Assembly (NCBI GenBank): GCA_022447095.1
Contig: JAKUUP010000008.1
Span: 1-51,889 of the forward strand
Direction: 5' to 3'
DNA from: Candidatus Thalassarchaeum betae
Lineage (GTDB): Archaea; Thermoplasmatota; Poseidoniia; Poseidoniales; Thalassarchaeaceae
DNA length: 51,889 nt
The first letter of the stretch is position 1. Each line of letters opens with the position of its first letter. The notes under the pieces are model-generated. The model was not told the DNA's origin. It saw only the letters and a program-made list of their open reading frames with translations, and did no database searches. Shown piece after piece: positions 4,907 through 22,459 of the stretch. A program made the position numbers and the translations under genes.

Positions 4907-7900
4907 TTACTCAGTGGCTTCATCGCCGTATTCGGCAACCGGCTGGTTGGCTACGGCCTCGATCTCTGACATAATCTCATCGAGATCGGGGCCGTGCTCC
5001 TCTATCATGAGTCTGCGCGCCCGTCTGCGCCTGAGGACTGTCAGTGGCAGGACGGTAACCGAGAGCAGCGCTATCGCGGCTAGGGAGAACCACCAGAGCA
5101 TCGGCCCAGAGTTACGAGCGTCCTCGATGGCCCAGTCTATCCACTCCTGCTCCAGCACCTCTATCGACATCGAGTTCTGGTTGTTCGCTGCATCGACGGA
5201 GAGTCCGTTGATCGTGTGGTTCCCTGGCGTGGGTGGGATCTCGATGGTGACAAGGAATTCCCCGGTCGAAGGGCACACGAACTCCTCGTCGTCTGCCTCC
5301 GTCCACAGCATCACGGTGGAGCCCTGTTCGCACACGCCGCTCACGACCCGGCTGGTCTCGAGTGTGCTGGTCCGATTGGTCACCTCGTAGAAGTTCAGTG
5401 CGGGCGCTATGGTGTCCTTTACTATGGACAGCGAGTAATTGTCGACATGGTCGAGGGCGTGTATCTCGATCAAGAACTGGTTGTCGCCCTCCTCAAGGTC
5501 GAAGACCACGCTCACTATGCTCGCACCGCGCTCAATCAGGTGCCTCTGGCCGCTTTCGGCCCTGCTCCACCATATCTCTTGATCCGGACCGCGCTGCAGG
5601 ATAGCCTCGACCGTCTCTATCGCCCCGAGCCCGCCGTTCCAGTCAGCGGTGACGTGGGTGCTGTATATCGCGGGGTCGAGTAGTATGCTCCTACACTCGA
5701 GGAACCTGTTGTCGTTCTCCTGGGGCTCGGTCATGTCCACTGCCTCCAGACATACCTCGTGCACACCTGTGTGGTTGAGCTCGAACAACGCGCCACTAGT
5801 GACTCCAGTACGCTCGCTGACTAGCACCCCGTCTATGGTGAACCGGACGTGGGCCTCCTCGCTCGACAGCCAAGACAGGCCCTGCCTGTGATCGAAGAAG
5901 GCCGAATCGGTGCCGGGGCTGATCCCCCATTCCACAATCGGCACCGAGCGGTCTAGCCCTAGGGGCCACTCCTCGACGACCGTGTTGTTGGCCCAATCAG
6001 TCATTTCGAGGAAGATGTTGTAGTCACCGTCGGGCAAGGTAGTCGTGTTGATCTCGTACTGAGAGATGAGGGTGCTCTGCCCCGGTGTGTCCTCCATTGT
6101 GATTTGCGGTATCAGCGAGTCGGATTCGCATTGCACGGTCTGATGCGGCGAGTTCACTGCCTGTAGCCTCAAGCACCAGTCCCGGATGTCCACGGGTATC
6201 GAGACGGTCAGCGTCCCCTCGCTCATGTTGACTGGATTGGCCATCTGCTCCAAGGTGTAGTGATAGCCGGCTTGGTCAGCCACGTCGAGCAGCGTCGCAC
6301 TGGGCGCATGGGGGTCGAACACGACCACGAAGTTCCTAGTGAACGAGTTACCAGCAGCATCGCTGACCTCAATATCGAAGATGCTGCTGCCGTGCACGTA
6401 GAAGAACGACGAGTCGTCGTCGGCTCTCTCTTCGGCCTCGGTTAACTGGAAGGTGAACTCTCCGAAGCCGCTCTCGTCGAGCTCGATCTCGGTATCGCCG
6501 TGTCTCGCACTGGCACCGGGCTCAGTCTGGAGTGTGTAGATCATCGTAGCTTCGTTGGTTATCCACGGGATGTTGGAGATGGACACAATCGGAGCGGTGG
6601 CATCGTAGGACACCGAGAGGTGGGCCTCGTCAGAGTTGTTCGACCTGTCAGTCAGGTCGGCTCTGTAGTCATGCCATTTCTCCACCTGTGGCAGCGTGGC
6701 GTTCACCCAGACCTCCCTGAACGAGACGTTCTCGGGCATGGCGAAGTGGTTGCCGCTGTTCCAGATGGCAGTCAGGTTGTGGTGATTGCCATCGGTGTCG
6801 ATGGCTTCGACGAGGTCAGCGACGGGTACGCTGGTGTCCTCGTCAGCAGGTTCCCAGTTCAGATCGTCGAGGCTGAACCCTATGCCTGTGTCGAGAGCGT
6901 GGAGCCTGACCGGTACGGTGACGTTTGTCTGCGTCAGGTTGGCGGGGACCTCGAAGTCGACCTCCGGATCCAACTCGACCAACTCGTAGGTATACGGCAG
7001 CCGAAGGCTGATGTCGCCCTCGATGATGATGTCGATGAACCCGGTCCATATCCCTGCGGTCTCTGGCATCTCGTAAGCGAGATTGACCTGCAGGGCCGAA
7101 GCTGGCACCTGACCTGCTAGGGTCTCGCTTCCGTTAGGCCATATCGCGTCGATCTCTCCCTGAGTAAGCGAGAGTTGGTCGGTAATCACCAGTTCGTCAC
7201 CACCTACCACCTCGATGTCGATCCAGAACTGTACTGTGCCACTCGGCACTGAGTATCCGTGGACGGCTACCGAGTAGAGTCCGTCATCGGGGTCCACGAT
7301 GCGAATCGTCTCGGCGGAGGAGCCGGACCATGAGCGGGTCACCTCCTCGCCGGAGGAGAATGCGCCGTCCCCGTTAGAGTCGCGGAACAGGAACAGGTCG
7401 AGGTCTGCATCGTCATGTGCGTTCATCCGGATGTTCAGCTCGGTAGAGTTCTGGACGGTCATGTTGTGCCACCAAGATGCGGTCATCTTGTTGCCCGAGA
7501 CGTCCTGATATGCCGTCTCGTTGTCGAAGTGGGCCGGCTGGCTCCAACCATAGGCGGTCACCGAGTCCACAGAGAGTGGGACAGTGGAGACTACGTGGAC
7601 CGCGTCCACCCCACTGCCCTCGGCCCAGTCGGTGACCACGCGCTCGAAGCCGGACTCCTCGGCCGCGATGTAGCCGACGGAGATGTTGAGGGGGTTGTCG
7701 TTGGTGGACACGCCGTGCAGCGCGGTATGCAAGACCATCTGGTGCATGCCCTGGGATGCAGGCACAGCGAACATCTCGCGCGAAGTACCAGTGAATGTGT
7801 CCCAGTTGTGCGAGCCCCCGCCCGCGTGGTTGTTTATCGAACGTGATTCGATGAAGAAGGTCGACTCGCCATAGGCATCAGGGTGGTCCTCGGCGTAGCC

Positions 7901-10900
7901 ATGAGGCATCTCGGACAGCCACATGATGTCGATGTCAGTGTAGGGGTTGTCTTCCCAGTCGACATCGAGGATAGCCGTTCCCCCGGTGTCCCATTCCTCG
8001 GGCCAATCGACAGATAGGAAACGCCAGTCGCCGCTCTCAGCCCGCCAGTCCCATCTGGTGGCGCCGCTGATCCACTCCTCGGTGTATAGAGTCTGATTCG
8101 ACACGTTTCCGTCCAGTGGGCCTGCGTCCAGTGTGAACGGCCCTACCCATGGCACGTTCGTCACCACTGGCAGGGTCCAGTTCCTGTGAGATATGGGCGA
8201 TGTCGTGTTCCCCCCTCCAGCCTCGAGTTCGAAAGTCTCTACTAGCACACCGTGCTGATGCAAGCCGGACCTAGCGTCCTGAGGCACTGAGACGGTCATC
8301 TGAGTCGAACTAGAGTCGTTCGCGGAGACAGCCAAGGAGGTGGGCATAGAGATCCAATCATCGTCGGCGCTGCCAAAGGCAGTCCAATCGATCTCGATCC
8401 TGACCGGGTCGTCCGAGAGATGGCCGTTATAGTTCCAGACTCCGAGGAAGATTCCGTCCCTAGCATCCTCGAAGGGCAGACCTACTCTGACCTCGGCATT
8501 TGGCCCGTTGTCCCACCAGTAGGTGACTTCGTCTAGTTCGCTCCCTTCAGTCCAGTCATCAGAGTCGACCATGGAGTCGTTGTCGAAGTCCTCGACATAC
8601 ACCCCATCTCCGTCATCGTCGGTCCAACGGTATATCTGCAGGAAGACTCGTTCCTCGGAACTGCGGTCCTGATTGGCATCGAATGCAGAGTACTCTATGG
8701 TCGCACGCGCGCGCAGTTGAACCGTTTCCGATGGGAGCCTGAAGGTCGGGTCGTCGGAGATGTGCAGTGGTATCAGCAAGTCCGGCCGGCTCCCCTGATG
8801 GCCGTCCCATGTGTCGTTGGCCCCGTCTTCGGTACCGTTGCCGAGGCTGTGCCAAACCTGCACCGTGTGCTCAAGGGGGGCGAAGGCCGTGGGAGTGTAC
8901 CTGAGGAGCACGTCAGTCTGGCCATAGTTGGTGAACTCGAGGTCGACGACCTGCGACTCGCCTGGGTGCATGACGTTGATGTTGGCATCCCTGTGCTGGC
9001 CTTGGAAGGCGCCGCTGTTCCACTGAGCAGGACTTGCCCACCATGTCCCGTTCACCCCGTCCAGAGTGGCTGTGGCCCTCGACGCGTTGAACCAGCCACC
9101 GCCCTGCACGAATGGCTCGTAGCCCCTATCGTCAGAGGTAGAGAGCACGAAGTCCCTGAACTCCTGCGAACCGGGATGGTCGCCGAGGTTGGCCTGCCAC
9201 GCCTGAGCGACCAGTGCCATCAGTCCGGCTGCTATTGGCGTGGCCAAGCTGGTGCCGCCCCACGAGCTCCATGCCGAGTTGGCGTCTGAGCGGTAGTTGA
9301 GGGGGATGTCTCCGGTCGCGGACCATCCGACGGAAACGATGTCCGGGTCCATTCTGCCGACTACGTTGGGGCCGCGGTTGGACCAAGGGGCGTTCTGGCC
9401 CCATGAGTCGCTGGTGCGGCTGCTGAAGGCACCCACGGAGAATATCCCGTGAGCTGCGCCCGGCACTTTGGCGGTGCCGAAGCCATGGCCTCCGTTGCCG
9501 ATGGCGACAGAGTAGGATGTGTTCTGGTTGTACACCCTCGTCAGCCAGTCGAGATAGAGGGAGTAGCCGTCGGCCCCGGCTTCATCGACAGAGGAGTAGC
9601 CGAACGAGAAAGAGCCGATGTGAGGCTGGTCTCCAACAGTCTGAGTTACGCCGTCATAGCCCTCGGCGATGAATCGCCAGCCGTCGAGGGCGTGCCCGCC
9701 GGAGTAGTGGTTGCCAATCGACGAGATTGTGGCGTTGGGGGCCATTCCTAGGACCTTGCCGTCGCTGATCACCCCCTGAGCGGAGACTGCGCTGGCGCAC
9801 AGAGTCCCGTGGCTGCCGGACTCGAGCATGAACAGGGTGAGGTTACCAGCACCGGGTATTCGGTTGGCGTAGCCGTGGCGGGCCGAGTATGTGTCTGTGT
9901 AAGGTGCGCCGTTGTTCCCGTCTGATATCCAGTACACGAGGCCTCCGGAGATATCCCATAACCCGTCCCCGTTGGTATCCAGCCCCGCTGTCTCCTCACC
10001 GGGCCTCATGGGCTCGTCGTTCTGGAACGCGCCATCGCGGTTGATATCCGGATATACAGTCTCATAGAGACCCGAAACACGGTCGTCGACGACTAATAGA
10101 GGCACATCTCCACCGACCTTGTTCCTCAGGCCTGAATCGGGGTGTTCGCCGAGGTGGTATTCGCCGGAGAGCGAGGCGTTGACCCCGGTGATGTTGTATC
10201 CGGAGGAATCCAGTACGCCGTCGCTGTCGTTGTCGTAGTCGATGAGTGATGTGTCGGCGTACCATGTGTTGCGGGCAGGGTAAGCGTCGCCGTACACCAA
10301 CCAGTAGTACATGCTGTTGTGGTCGAACATCAATGGCCAGCCTTCGTATGGCGACTTCGAATCGGTGACTCTGGCCTGGGTACCGTTGAGGTCGGGATGG
10401 GCGAAGTCGACCCCGGTGTCAGCGATCGCGACCACCATCCCCTCACCTGCGTAGCCACGTTCCCAAGCGTCGTTAGCGCCGTGTATCTCACCGCTACGGA
10501 CAGATTCTGGTTCGTAGTCAGGGGGACTCTCGAAGGGCATGGTATCGTACGGCTCGGGAGCCCTCTCAGCGTCGATTATCGCGATTACCCCCCCTACCAC
10601 GGGGAGCTTGTGGAAGAGCTCGGCCCCCATCCAGAATGTCCTGTGGTCAATCTGACCGTCAACGGGGTCATCGGCCACTAGAGTCTCGCCGTTCTTTGCC
10701 GGCTTCTGCTCCTCGAATGCACCATTGGCATGCTGCCACTCGTTCAGTGTCTGCAGTGAACGTGTGATGACCGTGATTCGGACCTCCGAAGCGCCTTCAT
10801 CGATGCGTTTCCAGAGGCTCGAGTCTACCCACGGTGAACCGCTGGTGATGTCTTCGGTCGCCTCAGTTGGCTGTTGAGCATCAGCATCTATGATGCTGGG

Positions 10901-10996
10901 ATTATGGCTGAGGGAGATACCAGCAGATGCCAGCCCAGTCGACAGAGATGAGAGCAGCATCAGCAGAACCATGGCAGATGCAGTACGCTGACGCAT
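4907..10996 (-). CDS. giant membrane-anchored subtilisin-like serine protease (S8)
   Basis: The product has 2029 residues. A signal peptide (about 1-26) is followed by a propeptide-like segment, then an S8 catalytic domain with all key residues: Asp193 in VVAIADTGVDFAHPDL, His396 in SHGTLCAS, oxyanion Asn501 in AIGNGGHG and Ser583 in GGTSLATPIAAG. The insert between Asp and His is unusually long, about 200 residues, and carries acidic DxNxDG-type loops (DINRDGAF, DTNGDGLWD) that probably bind calcium. Some 1350 residues of beta-rich, Ig-like modules follow. A single transmembrane helix near the C-terminus (MLWWFSLAAIALLSVTVLPL) and a basic stop-transfer RRRRARR anchor it to the membrane. It likely degrades external protein for peptide uptake. 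It precedes the hbd gene on the same strand and may be cotranscribed with it. Confidence 0.9.
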   Translation of the reverse strand: MRQRTASAMVLLMLLSSLSTGLASAGISLSHNPSIIDADAQQPTEATEDITSGSPWVDSSLWKRIDEGASEVRITVITRSLQTLNEWQHANGAFEEQKPAKNGETLVADDPVDGQIDHRTFWMGAELFHKLPVVGGVIAIIDAERAPEPYDTMPFESPPDYEPESVRSGEIHGANDAWERGYAGEGMVVAIADTGVDFAHPDLNGTQARVTDSKSPYEGWPLMFDHNSMYYWLVYGDAYPARNTWYADTSLIDYDNDSDGVLDSSGYNITGVNASLSGEYHLGEHPDSGLRNKVGGDVPLLVVDDRVSGLYETVYPDINRDGAFQNDEPMRPGEETAGLDTNGDGLWDISGGLVYWISDGNNGAPYTDTYSARHGYANRIPGAGNLTLFMLESGSHGTLCASAVSAQGVISDGKVLGMAPNATISSIGNHYSGGHALDGWRFIAEGYDGVTQTVGDQPHIGSFSFGYSSVDEAGADGYSLYLDWLTRVYNQNTSYSVAIGNGGHGFGTAKVPGAAHGIFSVGAFSSRTSDSWGQNAPWSNRGPNVVGRMDPDIVSVGWSATGDIPLNYRSDANSAWSSWGGTSLATPIAAGLMALVAQAWQANLGDHPGSQEFRDFVLSTSDDRGYEPFVQGGGWFNASRATATLDGVNGTWWASPAQWNSGAFQGQHRDANINVMHPGESQVVDLEFTNYGQTDVLLRYTPTAFAPLEHTVQVWHSLGNGTEDGANDTWDGHQGSRPDLLIPLHISDDPTFRLPSETVQLRARATIEYSAFDANQDRSSEERVFLQIYRWTDDDGDGVYVEDFDNDSMVDSDDWTEGSELDEVTYWWDNGPNAEVRVGLPFEDARDGIFLGVWNYNGHLSDDPVRIEIDWTAFGSADDDWISMPTSLAVSANDSSSTQMTVSVPQDARSGLHQHGVLVETFELEAGGGNTTSPISHRNWTLPVVTNVPWVGPFTLDAGPLDGNVSNQTLYTEEWISGATRWDWRAESGDWRFLSVDWPEEWDTGGTAILDVDWEDNPYTDIDIMWLSEMPHGYAEDHPDAYGESTFFIESRSINNHAGGGSHNWDTFTGTSREMFAVPASQGMHQMVLHTALHGVSTNDNPLNISVGYIAAEESGFERVVTDWAEGSGVDAVHVVSTVPLSVDSVTAYGWSQPAHFDNETAYQDVSGNKMTASWWHNMTVQNSTELNIRMNAHDDADLDLFLFRDSNGDGAFSSGEEVTRSWSGSSAETIRIVDPDDGLYSVAVHGYSVPSGTVQFWIDIEVVGGDELVITDQLSLTQGEIDAIWPNGSETLAGQVPASALQVNLAYEMPETAGIWTGFIDIIIEGDISLRLPYTYELVELDPEVDFEVPANLTQTNVTVPVRLHALDTGIGFSLDDLNWEPADEDTSVPVADLVEAIDTDGNHHNLTAIWNSGNHFAMPENVSFREVWVNATLPQVEKWHDYRADLTDRSNNSDEAHLSVSYDATAPIVSISNIPWITNEATMIYTLQTEPGASARHGDTEIELDESGFGEFTFQLTEAEERADDDSSFFYVHGSSIFDIEVSDAAGNSFTRNFVVVFDPHAPSATLLDVADQAGYHYTLEQMANPVNMSEGTLTVSIPVDIRDWCLRLQAVNSPHQTVQCESDSLIPQITMEDTPGQSTLISQYEINTTTLPDGDYNIFLEMTDWANNTVVEEWPLGLDRSVPIVEWGISPGTDSAFFDHRQGLSWLSSEEAHVRFTIDGVLVSERTGVTSGALFELNHTGVHEVCLEAVDMTEPQENDNRFLECRSILLDPAIYSTHVTADWNGGLGAIETVEAILQRGPDQEIWWSRAESGQRHLIERGASIVSVVFDLEEGDNQFLIEIHALDHVDNYSLSIVKDTIAPALNFYEVTNRTSTLETSRVVSGVCEQGSTVMLWTEADDEEFVCPSTGEFLVTIEIPPTPGNHTINGLSVDAANNQNSMSIEVLEQEWIDWAIEDARNSGPMLWWFSLAAIALLSVTVLPLTVLRRRRARRLMIEEHGPDLDEIMSEIEAVANQPVAEYGDEATE

Positions 10997-11082: not shown

Positions 11083-11158
11083 AGTCCCGTGGTGTAGTGG
11101 CCCATCATACCGGGTTTTGGTCCCGGTGACGGAGGTTCGAATCCTCCCGGGACTACCA
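11083..11158 (+). tRNA. tRNA-Gln (TTG anticodon)
   Basis: The 76-base cloverleaf has acceptor AGTCCCG paired with CGGGACT, an anticodon arm with loop TTTTGGT (anticodon TTG), a T arm with GGTTCGAATCC and an encoded 3' CCA. The CCA ends one base before the stop codon of the convergent acyl-CoA dehydrogenase gene. An AT-rich CAAATCAAAAG at 11046-11056 may be its TATA region. Confidence 0.95.
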
Positions 11159-12577
11159 CTAGCGTTCGATGGCGTCGGAGTCATCGGCGAGGTCTCGGGT
11201 GATGTTCTTCTGATGGCCCTCAAGCGTCCCGCCGCCTATCTCCAGCAGCTTAGCGTCGCGCCACAGCCTCTCAACCACGTACTCGCCGACGTAGCCGTAG
11301 CCCCCCATCACCTGGATGGCTCTGTCTGCGATGTTCTTGGCCGCGGTAGTGCCGTACAGTTTGACGCCGTCAGAGTCCAGACGGTTTCCCGCCTCTGAGA
11401 GGTCGATCTGCCGGGCGGTATCGTAGACGTAAGTCCGCATGGCCCTGTACTCTGCCCATGATTCGCCGATGTGCCTCTGTATCTGCCCAAACTCTCGTAT
11501 CTGCTTCCCAAAGGCTTCGCGCTCACTTGCATAGCGATTCATCGCAGTGAGGCAGCGTCTCGATATGCCCAGCCCCATCGCTGCAAGGCCGAGCCTTTCA
11601 AGCTCGAGGTTTCTCATCATGTGAATCATTGACTCTCCGGGCTCGCCGACGATGTTCTCGGCTGGCACGATGCAGTCGTCGAACACCAACTCGGCTGTGT
11701 TGCTGGCCCTCATGCCGAGTTTATCGTAGATCTTCTGACCTACCGAGTAGCCGGGCATGCCGTTCTCGACGATGAAAGTGGTGATTTCAGCACGGCCCTT
11801 CTTGTTGGTGCCGGTACGCGCGTACAACCAGACTGCGTCGGCAGGTGTGCCGTCATCGTCTATTGAGCCGTTGGTTATCCACATCTTGCGCCCGTTGATC
11901 ACCCAGTTCCCGTCATCGCGCTGTAGCGCACTGGTTTGCATGCCGAGCACGTCAGTTCCATAACCCGGTTCACTCATCGCCATGCAGCCAATCCACTCAC
12001 CGCTGCACAACTTGGGTAGGATCCTGCGCTTCTGCTCCTCGCTACCGTTCTGGGCTAGGTTGTTGGCCATCAACTGGTCGTGGGCTAGGTAGGCAAGGCA
12101 GAAGCCAGGGTCCGAGTAAGATAGTTCCTCGTTGATGATAGCCACTGCAGTGGCATCCATGCCCCCGCCGCCATACTCATCCGGAACGGAGATTCCCAGC
12201 AACCCTTGGTCACCGAGACTTTGGAATAATTCGGCGTTGAACCTCTCGTCACGGTCGTGTTCCAGTGCCTGTGGCTCGACCTCTTTGAGAACGAAATCGC
12301 GGAGCATCTCCCGGAGCATCGCGTGCTCCTCGGTGGGATTAGCGATGTCAAGTTCGCGCCAGTCCCCACTCATGGGCGTGCTCCCTCCTGTCTCTGTATG
12401 AGGTAGATCAGATTTGACAGTGCAACCATTGGCGCATATCCATCCTACGCTCCTGCGCGTGGCAGACGCCATGGACTTGGCCTCCTCGCCAGGAGCAGGC
12501 AGGCGTGACTCGATTCGATACATGATGCGCTGGCAGTGATCGCATCGAGGACGAGGATTGAGTGACTTCTTCGGCAC
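11159..12577 (-). CDS. acyl-CoA dehydrogenase with an N-terminal zinc-ribbon-like extension
   Basis: This flavoenzyme oxidises acyl-CoA to trans-2-enoyl-CoA and passes electrons to ETF. The core starts near residue 69 (MSGDWRELDIANPTEEHAML). It shows AMSEPGYGTDV and KMWITNGS of the FAD/substrate domain, IYDKLGMRASNTAELVFDD, and the C-terminal helical domain with QVMGGYGYVGEYVVERLWRDAK. A GTG at 12577 opens a 68-residue in-frame extension with Cys12-x2-Cys15 and Cys48-x3-Cys52, like a zinc ribbon. The ATG at 12373, preceded by GGAGGG, could instead start a normal-length enzyme of 404 residues. I kept the longer form because no stop intervenes and the paired cysteines look selected. It lies 61 bases after asnS on the same strand. 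Confidence 0.87.
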   Translation of the reverse strand: MPKKSLNPRPRCDHCQRIMYRIESRLPAPGEEAKSMASATRRSVGWICANGCTVKSDLPHTETGGSTPMSGDWRELDIANPTEEHAMLREMLRDFVLKEVEPQALEHDRDERFNAELFQSLGDQGLLGISVPDEYGGGGMDATAVAIINEELSYSDPGFCLAYLAHDQLMANNLAQNGSEEQKRRILPKLCSGEWIGCMAMSEPGYGTDVLGMQTSALQRDDGNWVINGRKMWITNGSIDDDGTPADAVWLYARTGTNKKGRAEITTFIVENGMPGYSVGQKIYDKLGMRASNTAELVFDDCIVPAENIVGEPGESMIHMMRNLELERLGLAAMGLGISRRCLTAMNRYASEREAFGKQIREFGQIQRHIGESWAEYRAMRTYVYDTARQIDLSEAGNRLDSDGVKLYGTTAAKNIADRAIQVMGGYGYVGEYVVERLWRDAKLLEIGGGTLEGHQKNITRDLADDSDAIER

Positions 12578-12638
12578 ACTGTGTGCTCAATCGCCTGATA
12601 TTAGAGGTTTTGGATACAAAGATACCTTTTGAGCACGC

Positions 12639-13967
12639 CTACGGCGTGACCCTTCTGCTGTCTCTCGGGAAGGGGATGACTTCGCGGATGTGGTCGGCAC
12701 CGGACAACCATGCGCATACACGGTCGACTCCGAGTCCGAAGCCGCCGTGGGGAACTCCTCCGTAACGGCGGATGTCGATGTAGAACTCGTACGGCTCGCG
12801 AGGAGTACCCTCCTCATCGATTCGCTCAAGTATCTCCTTCTCGGACCAAGTGCGCTCACCGCCTCCGACGATCTCTCCATAGCCCTCGGGAGCGAGTAGG
12901 TCGTGGCATAGCACGTACTTCGGCTCGTCCGGGTCGGGACGGTGGTAGAACGGCTTGGCGATGCGTGGATAGTGGGTGATGAAGTGAGGCACGTCGAAGT
13001 CAGCGGTGAGTACCTTCTCCTTTGAGTAGTCGAGATCCTGTCCCCACTCCACAGCCACCCCCTTGCTCTGCAGGGTCTCGATAGCCTCGTCGTACCTAAT
13101 TCTAGGGTATGCGCTGTCAGCATAACTGGCAATAAGCTCAAGATCACGGCCCAATTCTGACAACTCGTCCGAACTCTCATCGAGGAGAGTCTTAGCGATG
13201 TGCCTGACGACTCCCTCGCCATACTCCATGATATCCGCATTGGACGCCCAGGCGACCTCCATCTCAGCATGCCAGTACTCGGTCAGGTGTCTGCGGGTCC
13301 TGCTTTTCTCAGCTCTGAAAGACGGTGCTATCGTGTACAACCTCTCCAGAGCCGGAGCGGCCGCTTCGGCGTACAGTTGCCAAGACTGTGTGAGGTAGGC
13401 CTTGCGACCGAAGTAGGGCACCTCAAACAATGTGCTCCCCCCCTCCACTGCACCGGCTACGAAGTTCGGCGCGTGGTACTCGATGAAGTCACGATCGCGG
13501 AAGTAAGAGTGGATGGCTCCGAACAGTGTCGAGCGGAGTTTGAGCATCGTCGTCATCCGACCGGTTCGCAGGTACAGGTGGCGGTTGTCAAGGAGGAATT
13601 CTGTCTCGCCACCATCTGCTTCTGCCATAGCTGACTCTGTTATCGGGAATGGTCGCTCTGGATTGACCCTTCCAACCACCTCGCCCGATGAGACTTGTAC
13701 CTCGTGACCGTGCTCACGGTCGGTCGACTCGACCACCCCGCGCACGATGACACTGGACTCGATCAGGGTCGTGCTGAGTTCCTCGAAGGTATCGTCTCCG
13801 ACTCCATCGCGCTTGATCACGCACTGAACTAAACCTGTGGAGTCACGAAGTACCATGAACCATATCTTGTTGGAGCCACGGGTCCTGTGGACCCATCCCT
13901 TCAACTCGACTTCAGCACCGTCGTGGGAGCCTGCACGTACATCGCCGATCCAATGCTGCTTGCTCAT
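12639..13967 (-). CDS. asnS: asparaginyl-tRNA synthetase
   Basis: This class II aminoacyl-tRNA synthetase has 442 residues. The N-terminal OB-fold anticodon-binding domain reads VELKGWVHRTRGSNKIWFMVLRD. The catalytic domain has motif 2 FRAEKSRTRRHLTEYWHAEME and motif 3 GGFGLGVDRVCAWL. The RRYGGVPHGGFGLG segment resembles AsnRS rather than AspRS. The protein charges tRNA-Asn directly with asparagine, so the tRNA-dependent amidation route may be dispensable for Asn. The ATG at 13967 has an upstream GGAAGGGA purine stretch. AspRS is the main alternative, because the two enzymes are close paralogues in archaea. Confidence 0.9.
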   Translation of the reverse strand: MSKQHWIGDVRAGSHDGAEVELKGWVHRTRGSNKIWFMVLRDSTGLVQCVIKRDGVGDDTFEELSTTLIESSVIVRGVVESTDREHGHEVQVSSGEVVGRVNPERPFPITESAMAEADGGETEFLLDNRHLYLRTGRMTTMLKLRSTLFGAIHSYFRDRDFIEYHAPNFVAGAVEGGSTLFEVPYFGRKAYLTQSWQLYAEAAAPALERLYTIAPSFRAEKSRTRRHLTEYWHAEMEVAWASNADIMEYGEGVVRHIAKTLLDESSDELSELGRDLELIASYADSAYPRIRYDEAIETLQSKGVAVEWGQDLDYSKEKVLTADFDVPHFITHYPRIAKPFYHRPDPDEPKYVLCHDLLAPEGYGEIVGGGERTWSEKEILERIDEEGTPREPYEFYIDIRRYGGVPHGGFGLGVDRVCAWLSGADHIREVIPFPRDSRRVTP

Positions 13968-14984: not shown

Positions 14985-15308
14985 GCGAGGCACCAGCACC
15001 CGTGGGTGCGAGGGAGCAGGAGGGTTGCTGACAGTGTACGACACTGAGGAAAGTCCCCTCTCCGCGATGCAGGTGGTCCGACGCAAGTCGGAGGTCCGGG
15101 AGGGCCGGCTCTGCAACAGAAACGAACCGCGCCAGGCGCACTGTGAACCCGCAAGGGAGAGGTTTCCTGACCGCGGCTGGAACGAGCATCCCCGCCGGAG
15201 CAAGTCCAAGCAGGTCCGCATGGCATCGACAGGACCGGGTAGGATGCATAGTTGAATGCGACCAGCCGAAAGGTGAACAGAAAGGGGCTTACTCCCTGCA
15301 CCCTCGCC
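14985..15308 (+). ncRNA. rnpB: RNase P RNA
   Basis: This is the catalytic RNA of RNase P, which trims tRNA 5' ends. The conserved core reads GAGGAAAGTCC near the 5' side (15047-15057) and ACAGAAAGGGGCTTACT near the 3' side (15278-15293), the two hallmark regions that form P4. The P1 helix is explicit: 15004-15016 pairs with 15292-15303 over 12 base pairs with one bulged G at 15010. A CGCAAG loop segment occurs in between. The size of about 300-320 bases fits an archaeal type A RNA. The exact ends are uncertain by 10-20 bases. Short reading frames across it are not genes. Confidence 0.88.
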
Positions 15309-22147: not shown

Positions 22148-22291
22148 GCTTTCACTTAACCTGCGTAAGGGTACCCGGCTTTGAAACATACTCAGGGCTT
22201 GAAATCGCCCTACTGCTCAGATGTCTCGCCCCTCTACCTCGGTCAACGCTAAAAGGGAGGTGTGGTTCGGCCGCCTCACCGAGGAAGAGCA

Positions 22292-22459
22292 ATGTCAGGA
22301 AGAGCAGTTATCTGCACGTCGTCAGGACTCCCGCTGATTAGCAAGAAGAGTACCGCCTTCCCATGCCCAGAATGCGGCAATTCAATAGGTCGAAGCGAGA
22401 AGTGCAGAGTTCAGTCAGTCATGTACATCTGCACTGAATGTGGCTTCCAAGGCCCTTGA
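22292..22459 (+). CDS. Zn-ribbon RNA-binding protein of translation (COG2888-like), degenerate first zinc site
   Basis: The 55-residue protein is the archaeal Zn-ribbon that typically sits directly upstream of elongation factor 1-beta, as here. It ends in the family signature ICTECGFQGP and has CPEC at 25-28. The family usually carries four CxxC knuckles. Here the first reads Cys8-Thr-Ser-Ser and the third reads Ser35-Glu-Lys-Cys38, so each has lost one cysteine, while the CPEC/CTEC pair is intact. The start at 22292 is fixed by a GAGGAAGAG ribosome-binding-like stretch. The role is presumably ribosome- or tRNA-associated and is not known precisely. Confidence 0.8.
   Translation: MSGRAVICTSSGLPLISKKSTAFPCPECGNSIGRSEKCRVQSVMYICTECGFQGP

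Follow-up and report, generated by a model that had tools for sequence, protein, structure and literature searches.

A probable cysteine-bearing N-terminal extension on an isovaleryl-CoA-dehydrogenase-type enzyme in two species of Thalassarchaeum

Introduction

In isovaleryl-CoA dehydrogenase (IVD) the catalytic base is Glu254 in mature-protein numbering, a position shared by LCAD, and the base of every other known member of the family lies at a different place, according to an excerpt of PMC10925408; in an excerpt of PMC12369846 the IVD base is numbered E286. Archaeal cysteine-bearing segments linked to acyl-CoA enzymes are described for the DUF35 zinc-ribbon/OB proteins (SSO2064; an excerpt of PMC2954200), where the cysteine-bearing segment neighbours an OB fold, whereas in the case described here its neighbour is a dehydrogenase. 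Our literature searches for a zinc ribbon or zinc finger combined with an acyl-CoA dehydrogenase found no paper, which is not proof of absence.

Here we analyze a locus in a 51,889-nucleotide stretch of DNA (the window) from a genome of the genus Thalassarchaeum, which belongs to a group of abundant uncultured marine archaea. An earlier note on this DNA had described a cysteine-bearing segment in frame with, and not separated by a stop from, an acyl-CoA dehydrogenase. The segment is present as claimed, in a frame of 472 codons with cysteines at residues 12, 15, 48 and 52; the observation is real and correctly located, and the surprise is modest. Below, G000 is the genome of the window (its contig 69) and G012 the sister species, the other carrier of the extension, which is Ca. 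Thalassarchaeum betae; an excerpt of PMC6461757 gives PSPG00000000 as the type of that species.

The locus and the enzyme

The features of the locus are:

11159 to 12577, minus strand: open reading frame of 472 codons (472 amino acids), GTG start at 12577, no stop ahead of the dehydrogenase
12374 to 12577, minus strand: 68-codon N-terminal extension (residues 1–68) with GTG start, Cys12-x2-Cys15 and Cys48-x3-Cys52
11159 to 12373, minus strand: acyl-CoA dehydrogenase of the isovaleryl-CoA-dehydrogenase type (residues 69–472 plus stop) with Glu327, from Pfam and PDB matches
12407 to 12472, minus strand: residues 36–57, with clear protein-level constraint (8 synonymous codons, 1 nonsynonymous)
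12371 to 12373, minus strand: internal ATG of residue 69, where the dehydrogenase probably started ancestrally; the sister species has ACG here
12396 to 12402, minus strand: CTCATAC element; its first base precedes the internal ATG by 29 nt
12578 to 12638, minus strand: spacer 3' of the tRNA-ligase gene, containing CTCTAAT
12639 to 13967, minus strand: asparagine/aspartate–tRNA ligase gene, upstream; best model asnS, above its cut-off
11083 to 11158, plus strand: convergent tRNA-Gln gene, whose end directly adjoins the dehydrogenase stop codon (11159)

Four in-frame start codons lie ahead of the enzyme, namely GTG1, ATG19, ATG36 (12472) and ATG69 (12373), the last with GGAGGGAGCACGCCC just 5' of it.

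All three ACAD domains are matched in Pfam (PF02771 6e-37, PF02770 9.7e-24, PF00441 3.6e-35), and the nearest solved proteins in a PDB search are isovaleryl-CoA dehydrogenases (4o5m, E 7e-88). In the alignment with 1ivh the stretch LEIGGGT of the window protein falls on YEIGAGT of IVD and, counting along the same alignment, E327 stands opposite E254. We take MCAD to have YEGT at the EIGxGT stretch and to use E376 as its base; the window protein seems to have a glycine at that MCAD-type position. By the aligned position of its catalytic Glu, the protein from residue 69 to 472 is thus an isovaleryl-CoA-dehydrogenase-type enzyme: it shares with 4o5m and 1ivh the ACAD domains, the Glu at the IVD position and the IVD-like EIGxGT stretch, and differs from these solved enzymes in the added 68 N-terminal residues. 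In the five best solved matches the alignment does not begin until query residues 80–83, and the earliest alignment start among the 60 best PDB matches listed is residue 63 (4irn). ETF genes are found in 13 of 13 genomes of the genus, so that an ordinary ETF-linked enzyme is expected. Two pattern matches to the dehydrogenase in viral_contigs were not confirmed as relatives. In G004 a second close copy of the dehydrogenase (78% identical) lies on contig 24, 2865–4103, minus strand.

Gain of DNA upstream of the gene

An orthologue of the dehydrogenase with at least 69% identity is found in 37 of the 40 genomes searched, that of the window included, with the match in G032 ending at residue 414; in G018 a fragment of the gene lies at a contig end, and for G026 and G029 only distant paralogues are listed. 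In other Poseidoniales these orthologous enzymes are 69–92% identical to the window protein, but outside the two carriers no extension was found on them.

The upstream side was examined for 30 orthologues, including all 13 members of the genus. The tail of the tRNA-ligase gene lies just upstream in 17 of these loci, carriers included, and was not found in the other 13. From the stop of the ligase gene to ATG69, or to its ACG counterpart, the carriers have 265 and 267 nt, whereas the 15 non-carriers with a recognizable junction have 39–87 nt between ligase and start (41–87 nt in those from other genera: G020, G022, G015 and G021); thus about 220 bp have been added. In a tree of the 30 dehydrogenases the carriers form one side of one branch, recovered in 87% of 200 bootstrap trees with support of 86/69, which is not strong. 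From tree and spacing we infer, as the simplest account, a single gain in the common ancestor of the two Thalassarchaeum species. No further copy of the insert itself was found in the 13 genomes of the genus (best off-locus match E 0.11).

Homologues of the extension were sought in the 40 relatives, the 13 genus genomes and genomes sampled from the family (148), the order (318) and the phylum (389). Strong matches are confined to 2 of the 13 genus genomes, G000 and G012. Three further genus genomes gave weak matches (E 0.003 to 0.2); of the five weak matches at genus level, those in G010, G006 contig 15 and G001 contig 4 all have stops inside. The family, order and phylum samples added one, two and one matches respectively, all weak and all rejected. 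Three of the four have internal stops: G109 (family), which matches near the second cysteine pair; G190 (order), with three stops; and G430 (phylum), which has cysteines at all four places and three stops inside, and whose match overlies, in the same orientation, a long open frame that encodes a different protein. In the fourth, G006 of the order sample (E 0.003, stop-free), the overlapping place read in translation has no cysteine pair. Among the places that were realigned (the matches in the 40 relatives, G109 and G430, most of them translated), not one combines an open frame with both cysteine pairs; L042 has a single C-x2-C pair. Pattern searches gave 29 matches in genome_contigs, of which one, the sister species, is a true relative, and 86 in viral_contigs, none of them a relative. 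The extension is probably a small, young, lineage-specific change. As to conservation of the cysteines among relatives, the point on which the earlier note had proposed to judge the segment, all four are kept in G012, and the extension carrying them is limited to 2 of 13 genus genomes.

Evidence for translation

We favour the explanation that the whole extension is translated as a young N-terminal appendage on the dehydrogenase, which the comparison of the two carriers makes fairly probable. The main alternative is that the extension is a non-coding leader or promoter region and that translation starts at ATG12373 (GTG71 in the sister species) behind an ancestral promoter of the leaderless type; we give this a minor share of the probability. 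Simple conservation does not separate the two. Between G000 and G012 the extension is identical at 58 of 68 residues and at 86.8% of its DNA, but intergenic DNA outside RNA genes is nearly as conserved (82.7%), as a leader would have it, so that DNA identity alone proves nothing. Likewise, the segment is stop-free in G012, but all three forward frames are open there and openness alone says little.

The substitutions are more informative. Of 26 codons that differ between the carriers, 16 differ synonymously and 10 nonsynonymously, compared with 17.8 nonsynonymous codons predicted by a neutral simulation with the same number of differences and a transition bias of 4 (P 0.0006). In sub-windows picked by the analyst, residues 36–68 have 11 synonymous and 4 nonsynonymous codons (P 0.0002), which argues against a non-coding leader, whereas residues 1–35, with the first cysteine pair, have 5 and 6 (P 0.26) and look as neutral as a leader should. 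For residues 58–68 the counts are three and three (P 0.23), and protein-level constraint in this comparison is clear only for residues 36–57.

A substitution score was trained on the genes of the window against G012. In the frame of the extension it is 0.047, the best of the six frames and above the 95th percentile of off-frame values (−0.419). Among real coding stretches this value ranks only at the 6th percentile, and it is equalled by one antisense frame of real genes (average 0.052) and exceeded by 3 of 60 frame values from intergenic controls, in 2 of the 10 controls (0.425, 0.136 and 0.110). The codon score is low, in line with a leader: in G000 it falls below all 203 coding stretches of the window, and in G012 at the 2.5th percentile, an atypical composition that is due partly to the unusual amino-acid content. 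Synonymous codon choice is divided, being at the 10th percentile of gene stretches in G000, again as a leader would allow, but at a gene-like 78th percentile in G012.

The start region also bears on both readings. In G012 the ATG at residue 69 is replaced by ACG and the SD-like GGAGGG is absent, which favours the fused protein and counts against the leader, though a GTG two codons past the lost ATG could replace it. The GGAGGG before 12373, which the earlier note took for a ribosome-binding-like site, is there in the window and is not conserved in the sister species; motifs of this type precede only 8 of 98 roughly called starts.

Another argument for a leader comes from a CTCATAC element. In the 11 non-carriers of the genus its first base lies 29 or 30 nt upstream of the dehydrogenase ATG (in G004 counted from the second ATG, the distance to the first being 23), and both carriers keep it exactly 29 nt before the old start, counted in G012 from the ACG, at a place that is now inside the extension. 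The other-genus genome G015 has it at the same spacing, and G020 and G021 have CTCTTAC at 29; the rest of the 30 loci have no such element at that place, G019 having CTCATAG at 36. In some genomes the start is displaced by one codon, and the distance to the element is kept relative to the start codon and not to the reading frame, with two genomes differing by one base. CTCATAC may thus behave as the promoter of a leaderless message would, as a candidate at this locus. In 128 upstream sequences with roughly called starts CATA is enriched at −31 to −24 (8 against 1.8 expected), which also speaks for a leader, but CTCATAC itself is not enriched within the window (7 against 5.0 expected), so that the promoter role rests on this locus. 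An expectation-maximisation search for promoter motifs found no clear TATA box, and the AT profile across the 98 roughly called starts is nearly flat. Upstream of the long form, CTCTAAT lies 29 nt (G000) or 30 nt (G012) before GTG1; it fits the motif CTCWWAY, which was written so as to include it and occurs at 0.00033 per position, and is suggestive only as a candidate promoter element of that form.

Taken together, the stop-free frame shared with the relative, the substitution pattern and the loss of the internal ATG in G012 indicate that the extension is probably translated with the dehydrogenase, and this part of the earlier note's reading is supported; the zinc ribbon is not. For residues 36–68 at least, translation is likely on the codon comparison, a judgement that sums the favoured explanation and the start at ATG36 considered below. 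Most likely a long form starts at GTG1, and the window's species may still make a short form as well.

Nature of the cysteine segment

That the extension is a true zinc ribbon, by which the enzyme docks to a partner in electron transfer or to some other partner, is a special case of the favoured explanation, with which its probability overlaps, and we consider it improbable. What suggests it is the arrangement of four cysteines in two pairs, kept in both carriers, with zinc-knuckle-like spacing. When the six frames of the window, real gene frames included, are tiled into stop-free stretches of 68 residues, 6 of 572 contain two spaced C-x2/3-C pairs, the extension being one of them; of 20000 shuffled sequences with the extension's own composition, 0.6% contain such pairs. 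At 58/68 identity, all four cysteines would be kept with 52% chance without any special constraint. The second pair is C-x3-C, and inside the first the residues change from DH to NL, both of which count against a ribbon.

Profile searches do not supply one either. The sole Pfam entry listed for the extension is the TOP3B zinc ribbon, a weak match in its favour (E 0.024, 14.7 bits against a cut-off of 27); no match lies above the Pfam cut-off, and none was found in NCBIfam or the PDB. No DUF35 zinc-ribbon/OB model is listed (maximum E 10, with filters that drop most matches above about 0.1), and in PHROGs a single weak match (E 0.021), to a family of unknown function, was obtained. Beta-hairpin knuckles are a mark of zinc ribbons; an AlphaFold2 model from the two sequences is, at low confidence, a helical hairpin of residues 13–25 and 31–50, with pLDDT near 80 there and 66.8 overall, and a PDB fold search with it returned 4 matches, all with E above 5; the full-length model is uninformative (pLDDT 35.8). 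With no profile above cut-off, no PDB match and a low-confidence helical model, the zinc ribbon proposed earlier finds no backing. From the order of the helices, the modelled hairpin would put the cysteine pairs close together at one end, where they would suit a metal site or disulfides.

A start at ATG36 would leave a 33-residue extension with the second cysteine pair only, and hence no four-cysteine site. ATG36 is conserved in both species, and the clearly constrained residues 36–57 begin with it. However, GTG1, ATG19 and the stop-free frame ahead of residue 36 are conserved as well, residues 6–12 and 15–27 are identical in the two species, and CTCTAAT stands at its spacing before GTG1; we therefore regard this start as quite unlikely. 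A separate small cysteine-rich protein upstream of the dehydrogenase, which the earlier note had offered as an option and to which the internal ATG with its GGAGGG lends some appeal, is scarcely credible, because neither carrier has a stop between segment and enzyme and a ribosome starting at the GTG would run on into the enzyme.

Discussion

On the favoured explanation, insertion of about 220 bp between the dehydrogenase gene and the upstream tRNA-ligase gene would have given the enzyme its N-terminal extension. The new DNA would have supplied the upstream start GTG12577, perhaps with a promoter of its own, and the old start would have become an internal codon that was then lost in one species, while in the window's species the short form may still be made from it. 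The extension, if translated, is not expected to alter the chemistry of the enzyme, which from knowledge of the family would remain an FAD-dependent alpha,beta-dehydrogenation in which Glu327 acts as base and ETF receives the electrons. The appendage would most likely be a small helical tail, stabilised by metal or disulfides as the two cysteine pairs come together, and it could serve stability, redox or metal sensing, or partner binding.

If the long form is made, the locus offers a datable case in which intergenic DNA that had recently come to lie before a gene became a terminal domain of the enzyme, and in which the start region of the ancestor can still be recognised within the enlarged coding sequence. 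A bolder interpretation, which we consider rather doubtful, is that a newborn metal- or redox-responsive cysteine domain arose from DNA without detectable relatives and was fused to an IVD-type dehydrogenase within one genus, the old promoter and start being absorbed into the frame, so that one species can make two forms of the enzyme and its sister has abandoned the old ATG. The carriers known are two only.

Other observations in the window

The frame at 22262–22459 (plus strand, 65 amino acids), unlike the extension, resembles a typical archaeal zinc ribbon in its CPEC and CTEC pairs; its substitution pattern is coding-like. On the minus strand, 4907–10996 encodes a protein of 2029 codons with no NCBIfam match at 1e-10, which by its motifs is putatively a secreted subtilisin-type protease. 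The G012 contig is collinear with the window except that no long alignment covers the segment 18558–19871 (about 1.3 kb), and we read it as a probable species-specific insertion or deletion. An archaeal RNase P RNA gene is located at 15012–15303 on the plus strand (RF00373, 229 bits); the gap that contains it has 91% identity with the sister species.
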